A DNA stretch of 64,000 nt from Fimbriimonadaceae bacterium (GTDB lineage Bacteria > Armatimonadota > Fimbriimonadia > Fimbriimonadales > Fimbriimonadaceae): positions 682,001 through 746,000 of the forward strand of contig JALHNM010000001.1 of the NCBI GenBank assembly GCA_022843485.1, written 5' to 3'. A model generated the notes under the pieces. That model made no database searches and was not told where the DNA came from. It saw only the letters and a program-made list of their open reading frames with translations. The translations under genes and the position numbers were made by a program. Shown piece after piece: positions 8,814-17,549 of this stretch (the stretch's first letter is position 1; every line of letters starts with the position of its first letter).

Positions 8814-9295
8814 GCTTCAGTCTCCAGGCGCGTCGTGTTCGGGCGGCTGACTGCCCCCTTGACGACCGCCTCGGCGGTGCTTAGGAAAACGAGTTTGGCG
8901 AGGCCCATCCCTCGGGGCCCGCGGGCGGCGTGGTCGGCCACCGCTTGGTGCATCATGTCGCGGGCGAAGTCGCCCATAGCCCCCCCCTCTTCGACGAGGC
9001 GCTCACGCCCCGTCTGTTCGAGCAGGCCCTTCAAGAAGTAGGCCTCCATGCTCTGGGCGGCGTCTTGGAGCTTGGCGAGTTGGGTCTGGGCCTCGGCGGG
9101 GAGGCGGTCGACTTTGATTCGGCCTCCTTCGACGAACGGTTCCAGCGCAGCTTGGCCGGCCGATCCGAGGGCGTTGGTCACCCAACCGCTCAGACGTTGC
9201 TCGAGGGCCTGGGCGAAGTCCGCCCGCACCCCCGGGGCCGCGAGAGAGGCCCGGGTAGACCCGGCTGCCCCATCGATGCGGACGGTCGTCATCAC
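8810..9295 (-). CDS. flgJ: flagellar rod-binding protein (FlgJ N-terminal type)
   Basis: 161 residues. The region ~85-145 (AQSMEAYFLKGLLEQT through ARGPRGMGLAKLVF) resembles the rod-binding domain of FlgJ. The muramidase domain of enteric FlgJ is absent, as in many non-proteobacteria, so peptidoglycan hydrolysis for rod passage must come from another enzyme. Overlaps flgI by four bases. Confidence 0.8.
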   Translation of the reverse strand: MMTTVRIDGAAGSTRASLAAPGVRADFAQALEQRLSGWVTNALGSAGQAALEPFVEGGRIKVDRLPAEAQTQLAKLQDAAQSMEAYFLKGLLEQTGRERLVEEGGAMGDFARDMMHQAVADHAARGPRGMGLAKLVFLSTAEAVVKGAVSRPNTTRLETEA

Positions 9296-10611
9296 TGCAC
9301 CTCCACCCGAGCCTTGAGGGCTCCCTGGCGCTGGAGGGCCATGAGGATCGCGATCATGTCGCGGGCTGACACCTTGAGGGTCTGGAGCACGCGGGCCAGA
9401 TCGTCGAGGGTCGCGTTCGGCACGACCGTCCCCACCTGGGCCGGGGTCTCGGCGGCGTCGATCTGGGGGATCGCGACGACCACCGTCTCCCCGTTCGAGA
9501 AGGGGGGCGGCTGGCTGACGACGTAGTCGGTGGTGATCCGGACCTCGAGCGAGCCGTGGGCGATCACGGCCGGGCCGAGCTTGACGTTCCCTCCGACCAC
9601 GATCGTGCCCGTCCGCTCGTTCACGACGACGCTCGCGGGGGTGTGGGCCATGACCTCGGTCGCCTCGACCTGTTGGGCGACGTTCGTACCGGAGAGCCCG
9701 GCCGGAGGCAAGATACGCAACGTTGCCCCGTCCTCGGCGTCCACCTGGAACCCAGGAAGCTGGTCGCGCAGGGCCTGGACGGCCCGTTCGGCCGTGGTGA
9801 AGTCCGGGTCGCGCAGGTCGAAGAACATGACCCCGCCCTCGAACACGAACTGGGTCGGCACGCTCCGCTCCACGACCGCCCCGCCCGCCACGATGCCGAC
9901 GTTCGCGTGGTTCTTCCGGGCGCTGCTCCCGCCGGAGCTCGCGTTGAACCCGCCGATGCTCACCGAACCGAAGGCGGTGGCGAGGGTCGTGTCGGGGTCG
10001 GACATGCCGGTGAGCACAGTGGGCAGCAACACGCCGCCCTCAAGGCTCTTGGCGTCGCCGGTCGAGCTCACGGTGACGTCGATCTTGGTGCCGGGGGCCA
10101 CGAATGGCGGAAGCTCGGCGGTCAGGGTCACGGCCGCGATGTTCTTGGAGCGCACCTCCTTCTGGTCGACCGCCGTCCCCCACCGGCTCAGGTAGTTCGA
10201 GATCATCGTCGCCGTCCACGGGGCGGACTGGGAGTCCCCCGTACCGGCCAGCCCGACCACGAGGCCGATGCCCTGGATCACGTTCGACCGGGCGCCGCGG
10301 AACCGGCCGAGGTCGCCCAGCCGCACGCGGACGCCCTCGATCTCCCCGCGGCGGATCGCTTCGAGGTTGCGGGCCTGGCGCTCGTCGAGCATCCGCTTGA
10401 TCTCGGCCACTTGGTCGGCGGTCAGCTGGGGCTCCTGCCCCGCTCCGGCCGCCGGGTCGACCGTCCCTTGGTTCTGGGTCTGGGATTGGCCCGCCTGAGC
10501 CTTCTCCTGGGCTTTCTTGGGATCCTCCTGGAACCCGGAGCGACCCGGGACGGCCTGGCCGAGGACGTTGGCCGCAAGGGCCGTGACGAGGGTGAGGGTG
10601 GTGAGTCGCAT
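9292..10611 (-). CDS. flgI: flagellar P-ring protein FlgI
   Basis: 439 residues, longer than the usual ~365. A signal peptide is followed by an extra Gln/Ala-rich segment of about 60 residues, then the conserved VRLGDLGRFRGARSNVIQGI and the rest of FlgI. It forms the periplasmic ring around the rod and indicates a peptidoglycan/outer-membrane envelope. The C terminus (TLDDLARVLQTLKVSARDM) is family-typical. Confidence 0.96.
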   Translation of the reverse strand: MRLTTLTLVTALAANVLGQAVPGRSGFQEDPKKAQEKAQAGQSQTQNQGTVDPAAGAGQEPQLTADQVAEIKRMLDERQARNLEAIRRGEIEGVRVRLGDLGRFRGARSNVIQGIGLVVGLAGTGDSQSAPWTATMISNYLSRWGTAVDQKEVRSKNIAAVTLTAELPPFVAPGTKIDVTVSSTGDAKSLEGGVLLPTVLTGMSDPDTTLATAFGSVSIGGFNASSGGSSARKNHANVGIVAGGAVVERSVPTQFVFEGGVMFFDLRDPDFTTAERAVQALRDQLPGFQVDAEDGATLRILPPAGLSGTNVAQQVEATEVMAHTPASVVVNERTGTIVVGGNVKLGPAVIAHGSLEVRITTDYVVSQPPPFSNGETVVVAIPQIDAAETPAQVGTVVPNATLDDLARVLQTLKVSARDMIAILMALQRQGALKARVEVQ

Positions 10612-10621
10612 CGGGTCCCCT

Positions 10622-11230
10622 TCAGAAGAGCCAGTCCAGGAGCTGGGTGATCAGCCCTCGGCGCTGGCGGTCGGCGATCATCCCTCGGCCTTCCATTCGG
10701 ATTTCGGCCTCGGCGATCTGGGCGCTCTTGACGGTGTTCTCGCGGCTGATGTCTTCCGGCCGGACGATCCCGCGGAGCACGAGGGTCTGGGTGTCCTTGT
10801 TCGTGACGAGCGTCCGCCGGCCCTCGACGAAAAGGTTGCCGCCCGGGAGGACCTGCTTGATGACCACGCTCATCTGGGTCTGCATCGAGCTGTCGACCTG
10901 GGTCGACCCGTCTCCGCTCACCTTGCTGTCGTTCGAGACCGAGAGCGGGCGGAAGAGGCGGCTCAGGAGGCTCTTCACGAACTCAGGGGCGAAGCTGGTG
11001 GAGTCGCTCTTGGTCGCGTTCGTCTTCGCCGCGTACTTGGCGGCGGTGGTTTCGTCGACGAGCACGAGGAGCAGGTCGCCCACCCGCCGTGCGATGCGGT
11101 CGTGGAGGGGGTTCACCCCGCCCGGCGCATAGAGCGAGCCCGGGTTGGCCTTGCCGCCGGGGTCCTGGCCCCGGGCACCCGCCGCCGCCAAGACGAGGAC
11201 GAGGGCCAGGGCGAGCCCGACCCGCTTCAC
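10622..11230 (-). CDS. flgH: flagellar L-ring protein FlgH, without lipobox
   Basis: 202 residues from a GTG start whose last bases form the flgA stop (GTGA overlap). FlgH forms the outer-membrane bushing. Conserved parts include GDLLLVLVDETTAAK and LPGGNLFVEGRR. The signal peptide (ALALVLVLAAAGARGQ) has no cysteine, so the usual lipoprotein anchor is missing. A longer in-frame extension to 11584 was rejected because it reads through flgA. Confidence 0.93.
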   Translation of the reverse strand: MKRVGLALALVLVLAAAGARGQDPGGKANPGSLYAPGGVNPLHDRIARRVGDLLLVLVDETTAAKYAAKTNATKSDSTSFAPEFVKSLLSRLFRPLSVSNDSKVSGDGSTQVDSSMQTQMSVVIKQVLPGGNLFVEGRRTLVTNKDTQTLVLRGIVRPEDISRENTVKSAQIAEAEIRMEGRGMIADRQRRGLITQLLDWLF

Positions 11231-12384
11231 GCCCGGACCTCCACGGCCCCGTCCGGGGTGCCGGTGCCGACGACCCGGGTCGTCGACTCGACGAGCTGGA
11301 CGGTGACGGTGCCCCCGCGTTGGTCGATCTGGACGACCCGTCCGCGGGTTTGGACGGTGACGCTGCCCGACTTTACGCGGACCGGGACGACGGAGCCGAC
11401 ACGGAAGCTCGCGACGGGGGCGGTCGACCGGAGCCGGAGCGTCCGGCCGTTGAACCGCTTGCCATCGACGTACACGCCGACGGTGACGCTGGCCTCGAGC
11501 CCGTTCGTGGAGGAGGTCTCGGCCGTCAGCCGCAGCTCCCCCGCGGGCACGGTCATCGTTGGGCCCGGGGTAGGGGACTCCCATTGGGCGCTCCCCCCCT
11601 TGGCGAGGTACGCGACGGCGGCCTCGACGAACTCCGAGTGGGGCACGTCCTGTCCCGCCCGGCGGACGGTGGTGCGAAGCGGGCCGAGGAACCGCACGCT
11701 GCGAACCTCGACCCCTGCAAGCCGAAGCCTACCGAGGACGAAGGTGCGGTCGATCGTGCGAGCGACGCCGAACGCCGGGGTGGGCCCGAGGTCGAGACCG
11801 GTCAAGGTCGGTGCGAGTTCGGCCCGGGCGAAGACCGTGGCGATCTGCCCCAGCGTGAGGCTGTCGCCGGTCACCTTCGGCTCGTCCTGGAAGCTGACCT
11901 CCACCCCGCCGGAGCGCAGGAACTCGGGGTCCGGCATGGGCTGGGGCGGCGCAGTCTCTTTGGGCTCCGAGGGCGCGACTTGGTCGGTCGAGGGTTGCAC
12001 CGGCTTCGGAGCCGTCGTGGCGGCGACGATGCGGACTGTCCCGCCCGGCTCTACCATCTGGGCGCGGGCTGCCGAACGGAAGAACCCGGACGGGTCCGGG
12101 CCGCTGGGGCTCGAAGCGAAGGTGGCGACCATGACCCGGCCGGTCACGGACCCGGCGGAGCGGACAGTGCCGTCGGCGTCGAGGGTGAACCCAGGCTGGG
12201 CGCTGACCGAGGGCACGAGGGGAAGGCCGCAGGCCGACACGAGCCGGCCGCCTTCGGACCGCAGCCCGATCGACCGGGCGAACACGGCCCGCCCTTCGCG
12301 GACGAAGCGGAAGTACGCGTCGCCTTCGATGCGGTAGACGGTCGTTGCAGGGGACAGCAGGAGGCCACAGAGCACGCTCACCAT
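11227..12384 (-). CDS. flgA: FlgA P-ring assembly chaperone fused to an N-terminal FlgG/FlgE-like domain
   Basis: 385 residues, well above the usual ~220-240. The C-terminal part (~160-385) is FlgA, ending in a SAF-like segment (VRVKSGSVTVQTRGRV). Residues ~16-110 resemble the central domain of rod proteins: YRIEGDAYFRF matches VAIQGDGFFEV of the neighbouring FlgG, GRLVSACGLPLVP matches its DGYLINPP region, and GFTLDADGTV matches ITISANGTI. A Pro-rich linker (~125-150) joins the halves. It starts three bases after the flgG stop. Confidence 0.85.
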   Translation of the reverse strand: MVSVLCGLLLSPATTVYRIEGDAYFRFVREGRAVFARSIGLRSEGGRLVSACGLPLVPSVSAQPGFTLDADGTVRSAGSVTGRVMVATFASSPSGPDPSGFFRSAARAQMVEPGGTVRIVAATTAPKPVQPSTDQVAPSEPKETAPPQPMPDPEFLRSGGVEVSFQDEPKVTGDSLTLGQIATVFARAELAPTLTGLDLGPTPAFGVARTIDRTFVLGRLRLAGVEVRSVRFLGPLRTTVRRAGQDVPHSEFVEAAVAYLAKGGSAQWESPTPGPTMTVPAGELRLTAETSSTNGLEASVTVGVYVDGKRFNGRTLRLRSTAPVASFRVGSVVPVRVKSGSVTVQTRGRVVQIDQRGGTVTVQLVESTTRVVGTGTPDGAVEVRA

Positions 12385-13289: not shown

Positions 13290-14015
13290 TTACCGGCCCT
13301 GTAGGCTCTGGATCAGTCGTTGCGTCCCTTCGTCCTGGCTCTGCACGCTGCGCTGGGCCATTTCGAAGGCGCGGTTGAGTCGAATCATCGCGACCATCTC
13401 CTCGACCGCGTTCACGTTCGAGGACTCAAGGGTCTGTGGGATCACCTGAGCGGCCTCCATGGGCGTGGCGGCCTCGGTCTCGAGGAGGGCGTCGAGCGTC
13501 TTGCGGAACGGGCCGTCGAAGACCCCGATCCGCCCCGCGACCTGGCCGTCGACCTCGACGGCCCCGTTCGGGTCGACCTTGACCTTCCCGAGCGGGAGCG
13601 TGATCGGCCTCCCGTCCATGCCGAGCACGAGCCGCCCGGCCTTGTCCGTGACCTGTCGGTCGGAGTTGAGCGTGAAGCCCCCGTCCCGGGTGTAGCGCAC
13701 GCCGAGCGGGGTCTGGACGGCGAACGCGCCCCGTTGGCCCATGACCGCCAGGTCGAGCGGGTTCCCGGTGGGCGTCAAGTTGCCCATCGAGAAGTCGGTG
13801 AAGCGGCCTTTGCTGACCGCGCCCGCTCCGAGGCTGCCGATCTCGAGGCCCGACCCGCCGCCGGCGTTGAGGGCCCTCACGAGCCCGTCGTCGAACGCGA
13901 TGCCATCGCGCTTGTAGCCGATGGTCGAGGCGTTCGCCAAGTTGTGCGACACCACGTCCAACCACTGCTGGCTCGAGACCATGGCGGTCGCGGCTGCGTA
14001 GACACCCCTTTGCAT
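13290..14015 (-). CDS. flgF: flagellar basal-body rod protein FlgF
   Basis: 241 residues from MQRGVYAAATAMVSSQQWLD, the conserved FlgF/FlgG N terminus, with DVVSHNLANASTIGYKRDG. The centre has TPLGVRYTRDGGFTLNSD and the C terminus NVNAVEEMVAMIRLNRAFE. It is the first gene of the flagellar run. The much longer open frame to 14558 was rejected: its extra residues have no rod-protein character and run over the divergent gene. Confidence 0.95.
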   Translation of the reverse strand: MQRGVYAAATAMVSSQQWLDVVSHNLANASTIGYKRDGIAFDDGLVRALNAGGGSGLEIGSLGAGAVSKGRFTDFSMGNLTPTGNPLDLAVMGQRGAFAVQTPLGVRYTRDGGFTLNSDRQVTDKAGRLVLGMDGRPITLPLGKVKVDPNGAVEVDGQVAGRIGVFDGPFRKTLDALLETEAATPMEAAQVIPQTLESSNVNAVEEMVAMIRLNRAFEMAQRSVQSQDEGTQRLIQSLQGR

Positions 14016-14195
14016 CCCGGTATGTCTATCGGGCTGGGCCATCGATCGAGGGAGGGATCGGACCTCGCAATCGACTCGAACTTCAGGTCTCGCGCCGCCA
14101 AACTTGACGGAGAGCGCGAAGGATGGCGGGAAGGTCCCGCCCTCGGCCCAGCCTAGGGCCCGAAACCGCCCAGATGTGTCACGATCAAGGCGTCC

Positions 14196-14601: not shown

Positions 14602-16266
14602 CTAGACGATCGTCTTCTTCACCAGGGCCTCGCCCTTGTCGGGGCGAATGGGCTTGAGGGCGACCACGGACTCGGGCTCGAGGTCCAGCAGCTTAAGCCA
14701 GTCCTCGACGGCGTCGTTCTTTGGGAAGATCTCGTTCTCGCGGAACTCAGCCTCGGTCGCCTCGAGGAGGTCGGTCAGCGAGAGCCCGGTGTCAAGGGTG
14801 CGATCCGCGATCGCGCGACGGATTGCCGTGTCCTTCGCCCGGTCGACGATCGACTTGAGCAAGGCCCCGCTCACCATGTCCTGCCAGTAAAGGGTCTCGC
14901 TGTTGCCGTTGCGGAGCGAGACGCGGAGGAACTCGGTCTCCCTCGACTTCTTCCAGACGTGGGCGACCGTCCCCTCGACGAGGGCCCTCCGGGCACACTC
15001 GGGTTCGGCGTGCTCGGCGACGAGCGCCGGGTCGAGGGGGAGCCGTTCGTGCAGGTAGATGTCGAGGATCTGGCGGCTCGACTCCCGGTCGGGGCGGTTG
15101 ACCTTGACCTTCCGGTCGATCCGCTCGGGCCGTAGGATAGCGGGGTCGATGTAGTCCGGCCGGTTCGACGTGAGGATGAGGACGACGTTCTCGAGTTCGA
15201 CCATCCCGTCCATCTCGGCGCAGAACTGAGGCACGACCGTGTTGCTGATGTTCATCCACCGTCCGCTCGACCGGGTGCGTAGGATCGACTCTGCCTCGTC
15301 GATGAAGATCACCACGAGCCGCCCTTCCTTGGCCCGTTCCCGGGCGGCGGCGAAGATCTCCCGGACCATCCTCTCGGTCTCGCCGAGCCACATGTTCAGG
15401 ATCTTCGGCCCGCTAATGTGCATAAAGCACTCCTTGACCTCGTGCCCGCTGCGCTCGCTGTACTCCCGGGCCAGGTTGTAGGCCGTCGCCTTGCCGATGA
15501 GCGTCTTTCCGCACCCGGGGGGGCCGTAGAGCAGCACGCCCTTGACCGGCCGTTTGTCGTAGCGGGCGTAAAGCTCGGGGTAGAGGAGGGGGTGCTCGAT
15601 CGTCTCGCGGATGAGGGCGATGGCCTCTTCTTGGCCGCCGACCATCTCCCAGGGGGTCTCGGGGATCTCCTCGACGAAGTAGTCCCGAGTCTCGCGGTGG
15701 GCGAAGTGCTCGACGGCGATCCGCCCGGTGGGGTCGAGTCGGACCTCGTCGCCCGACTTGACCGGGGCGCCTTCAAGGGCCGCCGCGCGCTCGACGAGCC
15801 GTCCCGCGAGTCCCTGGGGGTCGCTCCCGACTCGGAGCCGGCCGTCCTCGAGCGCCTCGCTCACCTTCACGATCGGTCCGACGGTGGGGGTCGGCATCAG
15901 GCCGACCACGGCGTAGGCCTCGTTCAGCCGGACGCGGACGCCGGGGGCCAAGAGGGCAGCGTCGAGGTTAGGGTCGACCGTCGTGACGTACTCGGTGTCC
16001 CCCATCGCCACGACGACGAGGCCGTCCTGATCCAGGCCCCGGAGGTAGACGCCGACCCGGTTCGCGGGGGCGGTGAGCTTCTCGTACGCCTCGGCGTACT
16101 TCGCGAGGGTCTCTTCGCGCTCGGCGCTGGTCTTCTGGTCCGCTTCGAGCTCGTGCCGCAGGGCGGCGAGCGTGTTCTGGAGTTTCGGGTCGTCCTTGGG
16201 GGCCTGGTTCGCCAGACGCTCGAGGAGGGTCAGACTGCGGCTCTGGTCGGGATCCATCTCCCTCAT
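14602..16266 (-). CDS. proteasome-associated AAA ATPase (ARC/Mpa type)
   Basis: 554 residues. An N-terminal coiled coil (~25-65) is followed by two OB-like segments (~70-185) and one AAA+ domain with Walker A GPPGCGKT (248-255), Walker B VVIFIDEAES (~318) and an arginine-finger region LRPERIDRK. ARC/Mpa hexamers unfold substrates for the bacterial 20S proteasome. The protein ends KKTIV, lacking the QYL-type docking tail of Mpa. No proteasome subunit, Dop or Pup/UBact gene is adjacent. Starts at 16266 or 16257 are both possible; an in-frame extension to 16764 overlaps the next gene and was rejected. Confidence 0.88.
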   Translation of the reverse strand: MREMDPDQSRSLTLLERLANQAPKDDPKLQNTLAALRHELEADQKTSAEREETLAKYAEAYEKLTAPANRVGVYLRGLDQDGLVVVAMGDTEYVTTVDPNLDAALLAPGVRVRLNEAYAVVGLMPTPTVGPIVKVSEALEDGRLRVGSDPQGLAGRLVERAAALEGAPVKSGDEVRLDPTGRIAVEHFAHRETRDYFVEEIPETPWEMVGGQEEAIALIRETIEHPLLYPELYARYDKRPVKGVLLYGPPGCGKTLIGKATAYNLAREYSERSGHEVKECFMHISGPKILNMWLGETERMVREIFAAARERAKEGRLVVIFIDEAESILRTRSSGRWMNISNTVVPQFCAEMDGMVELENVVLILTSNRPDYIDPAILRPERIDRKVKVNRPDRESSRQILDIYLHERLPLDPALVAEHAEPECARRALVEGTVAHVWKKSRETEFLRVSLRNGNSETLYWQDMVSGALLKSIVDRAKDTAIRRAIADRTLDTGLSLTDLLEATEAEFRENEIFPKNDAVEDWLKLLDLEPESVVALKPIRPDKGEALVKKTIV

Positions 16267-16304
16267 ACTACGCTGGGAACGCGCGGTGCCGCCGCAGGTC
16301 GGGA

Positions 16305-17549
16305 CTATGCGATGGTCACGTCGGGCTGCTCCGGCGGGAGCATCGCCTCGGCGCCCTCGAACCCTTGGAGGACGGCTTCGGCGGCGGCGTGATTGACGTC
16401 CTTGGACACTCGGCTCTGGGCCCGCAAGCGGACGGTGCGGTCGTGACGCCGGGCCCAGCCCTGGACGAGGACGGAGACCCGACCGTCGGAGTCGCGGAAG
16501 ACGAGGGTGTCCTCGGCTCCGACGCTCGTCCCGGGGACGGCGTGCTCGATCGCTTGGGCTGTCGCGCTCACGACCGACTCCAATGTGGACTCCCCTCGCC
16601 GGACGGCCACCCCGGTCGCCACCGTGCCGCGCAGGGACACCGAGACCGACGTCGGCTCGACGCCAGCGTCGTCCACCGACAGGAACTGGACTTGGGTGGG
16701 CCGGGCCTGGGCCCGCTCGGGCGGCGCCTCCGCGGCCTGGTGGCGGGGCTTGCTGGCGAGGCACTCCTGGCTCGCGAGATTGATCAGGTTATCGACCGTC
16801 GAAGCGTAGTGGACTCGATCCCGCTCCCGCGTCCGCTTGCCTCCGCTCAGCCCGATCGCGAACGTGACGGGGTCCCGCACCCCCTCGACTTCAAGGGCTA
16901 CCCCTTGGAGCCTGTCCCGCACGGCTTCGATCTCGTCCCGTGGTCGGGTCGAGCCGAGCACGAACTCGTCACCCCCGTAGCGCACGAGGACGTCCTGGCT
17001 GGGCTCCAGGTGGTCGGCGAGGGTTTTCGCGAGGGCCTTGATCACCCTGTCGCCCACGATGTGCCCCTGTCGCTTGTTATAGGACCCGAAGTCGTTGAGG
17101 TCGACGAAGAGTAGGGTGACCTCGCGCCCGGCCTCAAGGCTCTTGATGCCCCAATCGCGGAGTCGGTCGCTCCAGGAAAGCCCGGTCATCGGGTCCCACG
17201 ACCGTCCGAGCTCCTCAAGGAGGCTCAGCGCAGTGAGGATGCCGGCGTAGCGCCCGCAGCGGGTCACGGCGGCGTAGTCGAGGGACTTATCCGCGAGCTC
17301 CTTTGCGGCCGCTCGGATCGGGGTCTGTTCGTCGAGGACGCACGGCGCGGGGGTAACGATCTCCCGGACCGTGACGTCAGGGGCGCTGGCGAGGGCGATG
17401 TCCAGCGTCAGCAGGCCGAGGAGCCGTCCCTGGTCGGTGACCGCGACGATCCGGCGCCCCCGCTCCTGCATGAGCCGGACAGCGACCGAGGCCGTGACGA
17501 GGGGCTCGATCGTGTCCGCGATCAGGGTCAGGTCTTGGAGCGTGCGCAT
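16305..17549 (-). CDS. CBS-pair / GGDEF diguanylate cyclase with an uncharacterised C-terminal domain
   Basis: 414 residues. The first ~130 form two CBS motifs (VAVTDQGRLLGLLTLDIAL; YAAVTRCGRYAGILTALSLL). A GGDEF domain follows with intact RYGGDEFVL, so c-di-GMP synthesis is plausible. The inhibitory RxxD motif that usually precedes GGDEF reads PSQD, so feedback inhibition is probably lost. The last ~150 residues are a separate alpha/beta segment I cannot name. The start is MRTLQDL; upstream in-frame codons run into the neighbouring gene. Confidence 0.85.
   Translation of the reverse strand: MRTLQDLTLIADTIEPLVTASVAVRLMQERGRRIVAVTDQGRLLGLLTLDIALASAPDVTVREIVTPAPCVLDEQTPIRAAAKELADKSLDYAAVTRCGRYAGILTALSLLEELGRSWDPMTGLSWSDRLRDWGIKSLEAGREVTLLFVDLNDFGSYNKRQGHIVGDRVIKALAKTLADHLEPSQDVLVRYGGDEFVLGSTRPRDEIEAVRDRLQGVALEVEGVRDPVTFAIGLSGGKRTRERDRVHYASTVDNLINLASQECLASKPRHQAAEAPPERAQARPTQVQFLSVDDAGVEPTSVSVSLRGTVATGVAVRRGESTLESVVSATAQAIEHAVPGTSVGAEDTLVFRDSDGRVSVLVQGWARRHDRTVRLRAQSRVSKDVNHAAAEAVLQGFEGAEAMLPPEQPDVTIA

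Follow-up and report, generated by a model that had tools for sequence, protein, structure and literature searches.

The 64,000-nucleotide stretch of Fimbriimonadaceae DNA analysed here (the window) carries flagellar rod and ring genes in the order flgF-flgG-flgA-flgH-flgI, which is also the order in nearly all of the examined relatives with the FlgA fusion described below. The genes lie close together, with a gap of 4 bases between flgG and flgA and with the start of flgH overlapping the end of flgA, so that flgA has the neighbours by which the gene is recognised (flgG on one side, flgH and then flgI on the other).

9292..10611, minus strand: flgI, P-ring (Pfam FlgI, E 2e-99)
10622..11236, minus strand: flgH, L-ring (Pfam FlgH, E 1e-46)
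11227-12384, minus strand: flgA, open reading frame of 385 residues
12389..13177, minus strand: flgG, distal rod, complete (Pfam rod, D1 and C-terminal domains; Salmonella FlgG, E 1e-79)
13290..14024, minus strand: flgF, proximal rod (Pfam)

Adjoining the flagellar cluster is an AAA ATPase with proteasomal ATPase OB domains (ARC/Mpa-like; 14602-16764 of the window). The relatives of the window FlgA that carry names are Fimbriimonadaceae and other Armatimonadetes records (14 loci, alignment A2); a contig scan with the window FlgA protein alone as query returned no matches.

Architecture of the extended FlgA

The window FlgA begins with a signal peptide, which is followed by a FlgG-D1-like domain of ~110 residues and, after a disordered linker, by the FlgA chaperone core, as set out below.

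12343..12384, minus strand: probable Sec signal peptide, residues 1-14, a short hydrophobic segment assigned by inspection
12013..12348, minus strand: FlgG-D1-like domain, residues 13-124 (Pfam LlgE_F_G_D1, PDB profile search, structural alignment)
11914..12012, minus strand: linker, residues 125-157, predicted to be disordered (pLDDT <50 at 124-142)
11653..11913, minus strand: 3g74-like domain, residues 158-244 (Z 11.0 to 3g74 over 85 residues)
11419..11652, minus strand: helix and antiparallel sheet, residues 245-322 (secondary structure of the model, set against the description in PMC4895218)
11230..11418, minus strand: FlgA domain D3, residues 323-385 (Salmonella FlgA 3vjp 139-198, Z 9.5; ChapFlgA 52-122)

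Residues 1-14 are a helix at low confidence in the predicted models, and signal peptides read by eye are clearer in some homologues, L007 and L011 among them, where they lie immediately N-terminal of the rod-like domain. With respect to the C-terminal half, the window protein alone scores 14.9 bits against ChapFlgA, below the cut-off; among 39 FlgA homologues, ChapFlgA is matched by 32, as is flgA_cterm (E up to 1). A whole-protein profile divides accordingly, its N-terminal part matching FlgG and its C-terminal part matching Salmonella FlgA 3tee (E 8e-4). Domain D3, the part of FlgA that binds FlgI in Salmonella (PMC4895218), is common to the window protein and Salmonella FlgA (3tee, 3vjp; D1-D3), as is the position of the gene beside flgG, flgH and flgI. 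Residues 245-322 we take, on the basis of the predicted model, to be FlgA domain D1. The window protein differs from Salmonella FlgA in its additional rod-like N-domain, linker and 3g74-like domain, and in that SAF/D2 is undetected.

The FlgA of Thermotoga maritima (3frn, D0-D3) likewise has an extra domain, D0, before D1 (PMC4895218). Judging from the model, residues 158-244 of the window protein are probably the equivalent of this D0, and 3frn aligns from window residue 160, albeit poorly (rmsd 9.6). In comparisons that covered Thermotoga FlgA as a whole, no result links its D0 to the rod-like domain. The 3g74 entry is itself a protein of unknown function, and a few FlgA relatives match a model of the sporulation protein SpoVAA.

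In terms of the SAF/antifreeze-like D2 that is otherwise a mark of FlgA, Pfam detected no SAF domain in the window protein and matched ChapFlgA only from position 52. SAF was similarly unmatched in Fimbriimonadales FlgA in general (families f1, f2, f4 and f5, f1 being the window's own), which match only the second half of ChapFlgA, from position 52-64; three other Armatimonadota (L071, L074 and L075) match both SAF and the full ChapFlgA. Because SAF is undetected in the unfused FlgA of the same order as well, the window protein is classed as a FlgA both reduced and extended, and not as a standard one. SAF/D2 seems to have been lost before the rod-like domain was acquired.

Relationship of the N-domain to FlgG D1

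A first-pass annotation had described the protein as FlgA fused to a FlgG/FlgE-like rod domain, and this description was borne out by both profile (E 3e-9) and fold (Z 14.9). The N-terminal piece of the window FlgA, searched alone, gave a single Pfam match, to LlgE_F_G_D1 (residues 19-80, E 0.06), which covers 2-62 of the 64 model positions and scores 13.9 bits against a cut-off of 27. Stronger matches were obtained from its relatives: LlgE_F_G_D1 is matched by 34 of the 39 FlgA homologues (best 2e-13), with the relative L059 passing the Pfam cut-off at 40.3 bits, and the FlgG model TIGR02488 is matched by 28 of the 39. We also built a profile from 14 N-domains, with no FlgG included, and searched it against 177,635 PDB sequences. 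The top five matches were all FlgG (E 3e-9 to 4e-8), positions 14-135 of the profile being collinear with FlgG 91-221, and FlgE came next at 3e-4.

When an AlphaFold2 model of residues 1-143 (pLDDT 87.5) was compared with FlgG 6jf2 in VIA-align, 117 residues superposed at 2.8 Å (Z 14.9). Every structural match with Z >10 is to a rod or hook protein, and the best other chain reaches Z 2.4. The prediction therefore returned a fold like that of FlgG D1, not the unlike fold that would have counted against the fusion. The resemblance had originally been placed at residues ~16-110; it is real there, but the limit of 110 is too short and the match extends to ~124-130, with the homology spanning D1 as far as the PG..G segment that precedes the FlgG C-terminal helix. 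That the resemblance is due to chance, or to a widespread beta fold without homology to rod proteins, might be argued from the weak score of the window sequence alone (E 0.06). Against this stand the five FlgG entries at the head of 177,635 sequences at a profile E of 3e-9, the Z of 14.9 compared with 2.4 for the best unrelated chain, and the D1 matches of 34 of the 39 relatives. We regard this explanation as exceedingly improbable, and reject it on the profile search and structural alignment.

Both profile and fold thus place the FlgA N-domain with the D1 domain of FlgE/F/G (PF22692). The remaining hallmarks of a FlgG rod protein are not found: Flg_bb_rod and Flg_bbr_C, the terminal rod segments, are absent from the FlgA Pfam matches, and the L-stretch is missing too. 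The N-domain is consequently a FlgG-derived domain and not a FlgG, and, as the terminal helices and L-stretch are absent, it is unable to polymerise as rod. Compared with FlgG D1 (PF22692; 6jf2, 5wrh), it is alike in fold, strand order and conserved Gly/Pro positions. It differs in lacking the terminal helices and L-stretch, in standing behind a probable Sec signal peptide, in having lost net negative charge, and in having an R104 and a D/E98 of its own. FlgG D1 is exported by the type III route and then displayed at the surface of the rod, whereas the FlgA copy would be periplasmic via the Sec route. In a literature search that took in few subscription papers, no title or abstract described a fusion of FlgA to a rod D1.

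Distribution, origin and selective constraint

We surveyed 291 genomes of the phylum Armatimonadota. In the window's family, 72 of 85 genomes yielded a FlgA, and the fusion is present in 70 of these 72, in one case divided between contigs. In the sister families the fusion is present in five of six f5 genomes and in the single f3 genome found; it was not found in the other Armatimonadota of the survey. In f2, f4 and the remaining families the match starts at about residue 140-160, or else consists of flgG and flgA chained across a stop codon. The two exceptions within the window's family (G036 and G051), which we read directly, have an intact unfused FlgA of ~260 residues with a signal peptide, beside flgG and flgH. 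A third genome of the same genus, G007, has the fusion, so that the following two normal-looking FlgA genes represent a natural deletion within the fused clade.

L110:744-1526, minus strand: unfused flgA
L111:790-1575, minus strand: unfused flgA

One f5 genome (G070) likewise has FlgI together with an unfused FlgA. On a tree of FlgI and FlgH that was built without G036 and G051, the pattern is one gain and one loss (G070), to which those two genomes add a second loss. The rod-like domain has thus been gained once and lost at least twice in Fimbriimonadales, and in view of the two losses it is an accessory to P-ring assembly and not a condition of it. Fifteen FlgA-less genomes of the order were searched for FlgI: 14 are without it, and the other yielded a truncated piece where a contig ends. 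Nine genomes without FlgI belong to a single genus of the window's family, g19 (G161, G162, G043, G168, G170, G172, G173, G175 and G177), which suggests that the flagellum, or at least the P-ring, has been lost there.

In a quick tree of D1 domains, the FlgA N-domains form one clade (SH-aLRT 100) joined to FlgG, and FlgF forms a separate clade (99); as the domain is short, the exact branching point is not fixed. Specifically, P138, F178, P206, G207 and G212 (Salmonella numbering) are common to FlgG and the FlgA N-domain and are not found in FlgF. An origin from FlgF is disfavoured by both the tree and these diagnostic residues. PDB matches to FlgE are weaker than those to FlgG (3e-4 versus 3e-9); the groups analysed in the tree were the FlgA N-domains, FlgG and FlgF. 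The source of the captured domain was likely a FlgG of the kind encoded in the window, and with flgG immediately upstream of flgA, we infer that the fusion arose most simply when part of flgG was duplicated into its neighbour.

The identity of the N-domain between species is low, at about 25-40%. Nonetheless, dN/dS in the three closest informative pairs is 0.087, 0.076 and 0.020 for the domain versus 0.115, 0.101 and 0.110 for the FlgA core; in a more distant pair (L032/L042) the domain value exceeds that of the core (0.384 versus 0.201). Where it is kept, the rod-like domain is, from these sequence comparisons, under purifying selection, and the dN/dS values lead us to reject a drifting relic. 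Across 64 FlgA N-domain sequences, G99, G101, R104, P138 and G155 are near-invariant. R104 (60 of 64) and D/E98 (57 of 64) are specific to FlgA, FlgG having mostly Gln and Asn at these positions, and their conservation points to a surface that would be absent from FlgG.

Possible functions of the rod-like domain

The process by which FlgA targets and releases FlgI has been stated to be unknown, and a role for FlgA as a pilot that carries FlgI to the rod has been proposed (PMC4895218). K63 and K95 of FlgI face, in the LP-ring structure, a negative rod surface that bears D109, D154 and E203 of FlgG (PMC8298488). Both rod-facing lysines appear to be conserved in the window FlgI (KNIAAV and AKSLEGG), as judged from alignment and residue context. 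On the FlgA side, acidic residues occur beside D109 in 64% of N-domains (with a one-residue gap there), at D154 in 70% and at E203 in 0%, and the mean net charge of the N-domain core is -0.4 compared with -5.7 in FlgG. A faithful electrostatic copy of the rod is therefore unsupported, given the difference in charge and a 203 position that is never acidic; a local mimic of it is possible.

A related module was also encountered in a second protein. A search of FlgI-less genomes with the FlgA N-domain profile found, in G161, a 605-residue transporter with a D1-like stretch between two hydrophobic segments; its family match is to the AmpG muropeptide transporters (TIGR00901, E 2e-43), under that model's cut-off. 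By standard MFS topology, the loop that holds the stretch would be periplasmic.

L097:409-2226, minus strand: AmpG-family transporter with a FlgG-D1-like insert, from the window's family; likewise L099-L104 and L109

When eight of these inserts were made into a profile free of flagellar sequences, its top five PDB matches were FlgG (E 5e-5 to 3e-4; next 0.27), and hhalign related it to the FlgA domain at 98.4% probability. Transporter-sized frames with a match were found in the eight seed genomes and in seven others of the family (about 15), where for the non-seed matches the score may come partly from the transmembrane flanks of the profile. AmpG orthologues without the insert exist, and in the genome from which the window comes no insert-bearing transporter passed the search threshold. 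In many genomes the FlgA domain scores higher than FlgG with the insert profile, and insert and FlgA domain may share a closer origin. The D1-like domain is thus able to work away from the flagellum, and with the AmpG-like insert known, a shared fold becomes a weaker reason to assume a rod-specific function.

With these observations in hand, a role for the N-domain in P-ring assembly is favoured by its presence in 70 of the 72 FlgA-bearing genomes of the window's family and the purifying selection on it, by its host being a FlgI binder in Salmonella, and by the absence of FlgI from 14 of the 15 FlgA-less genomes of the order. The reading that we prefer, if tentatively, since we place it somewhat short of even, is that the N-domain is a tethered mimic of the rod that would grip FlgI until the real rod takes over and displaces it. 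The retention of the rod-facing lysines in FlgI and the acidic residues near D109 and D154 argue for such a mimic. A simple version of it is disfavoured by the loss of negative charge and gain of FlgA-specific residues, by the loss of the domain in two lineages that keep FlgA (with FlgI or FlgH), and by the D1-like module in an AmpG-like transporter, present even where FlgI is not. A fuller account, in which a rod-surface domain was re-routed to Sec, serves as a tethered mimic that holds pre-ring FlgI and yields to the rod, and was reused in AmpG within the lineage, we consider somewhat unlikely in its entirety.

The first-pass annotation had proposed that FlgA is positioned on the rod by this domain, which is plausible and would fit the retention of the domain in the window's family, the purifying selection on it and its place on a protein that binds FlgI in Salmonella. 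In this form the N-domain would be a docking module, binding the rod through D1-D1 contacts or at the growing tip and delivering the FlgA-FlgI complex. The shared fold, the conserved FlgA-specific surface and the earlier proposal of a FlgA-FlgI pilot to the rod (PMC4895218) all fit docking, but the missing FlgG terminal helices and L-stretch and the related module in AmpG-like proteins count against it, and we rate it as rather unlikely. A peptidoglycan- or muropeptide-binding module that compensates for the lost SAF/D2 is unlikely in our estimation. D2 has been proposed to bind peptidoglycan (PMC4895218), SAF/D2 is undetected in Fimbriimonadales FlgA and present in three other Armatimonadota, and the other protein in which the module occurs belongs to the AmpG family of muropeptide transporters. 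However, the unfused FlgA of f2 and f4 are also without SAF, so that its loss needs no replacement, and the FlgA motifs [DE]G[ED]GY.R and PGEG are not retained in the AmpG inserts. We also know of no FlgG D1 that binds peptidoglycan. The remaining alternative, a structural spacer or stabiliser with no binding partner of its own, would account for the low interspecies identity, the drift in net charge, the repeated loss of the domain and the toleration of an insert in another protein; it sits poorly with a dN/dS that, in the closest pairs, is similar for domain and FlgA core or lower for the domain, and with the five near-invariant residues noted above, and we consider it quite unlikely.

Whichever of these applies, a rod-type domain exists here apart from the rod, and a relative of it in a protein that is not flagellar at all. 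A chaperone fused to the domain around which its ring closes is a direct hint as to how FlgI is delivered and released, and the FlgG D1 copy carried by FlgA suggests that FlgI is handled by imitating or gripping the rod. The isolated N-domain offers a tool for tests of binding to FlgI, rod or peptidoglycan.

FlgI itself also varies: in the window's family it has an N-terminal extension, often some 30-60 residues past the signal peptide, which is missing from most FlgI encoded beside an unfused FlgA.
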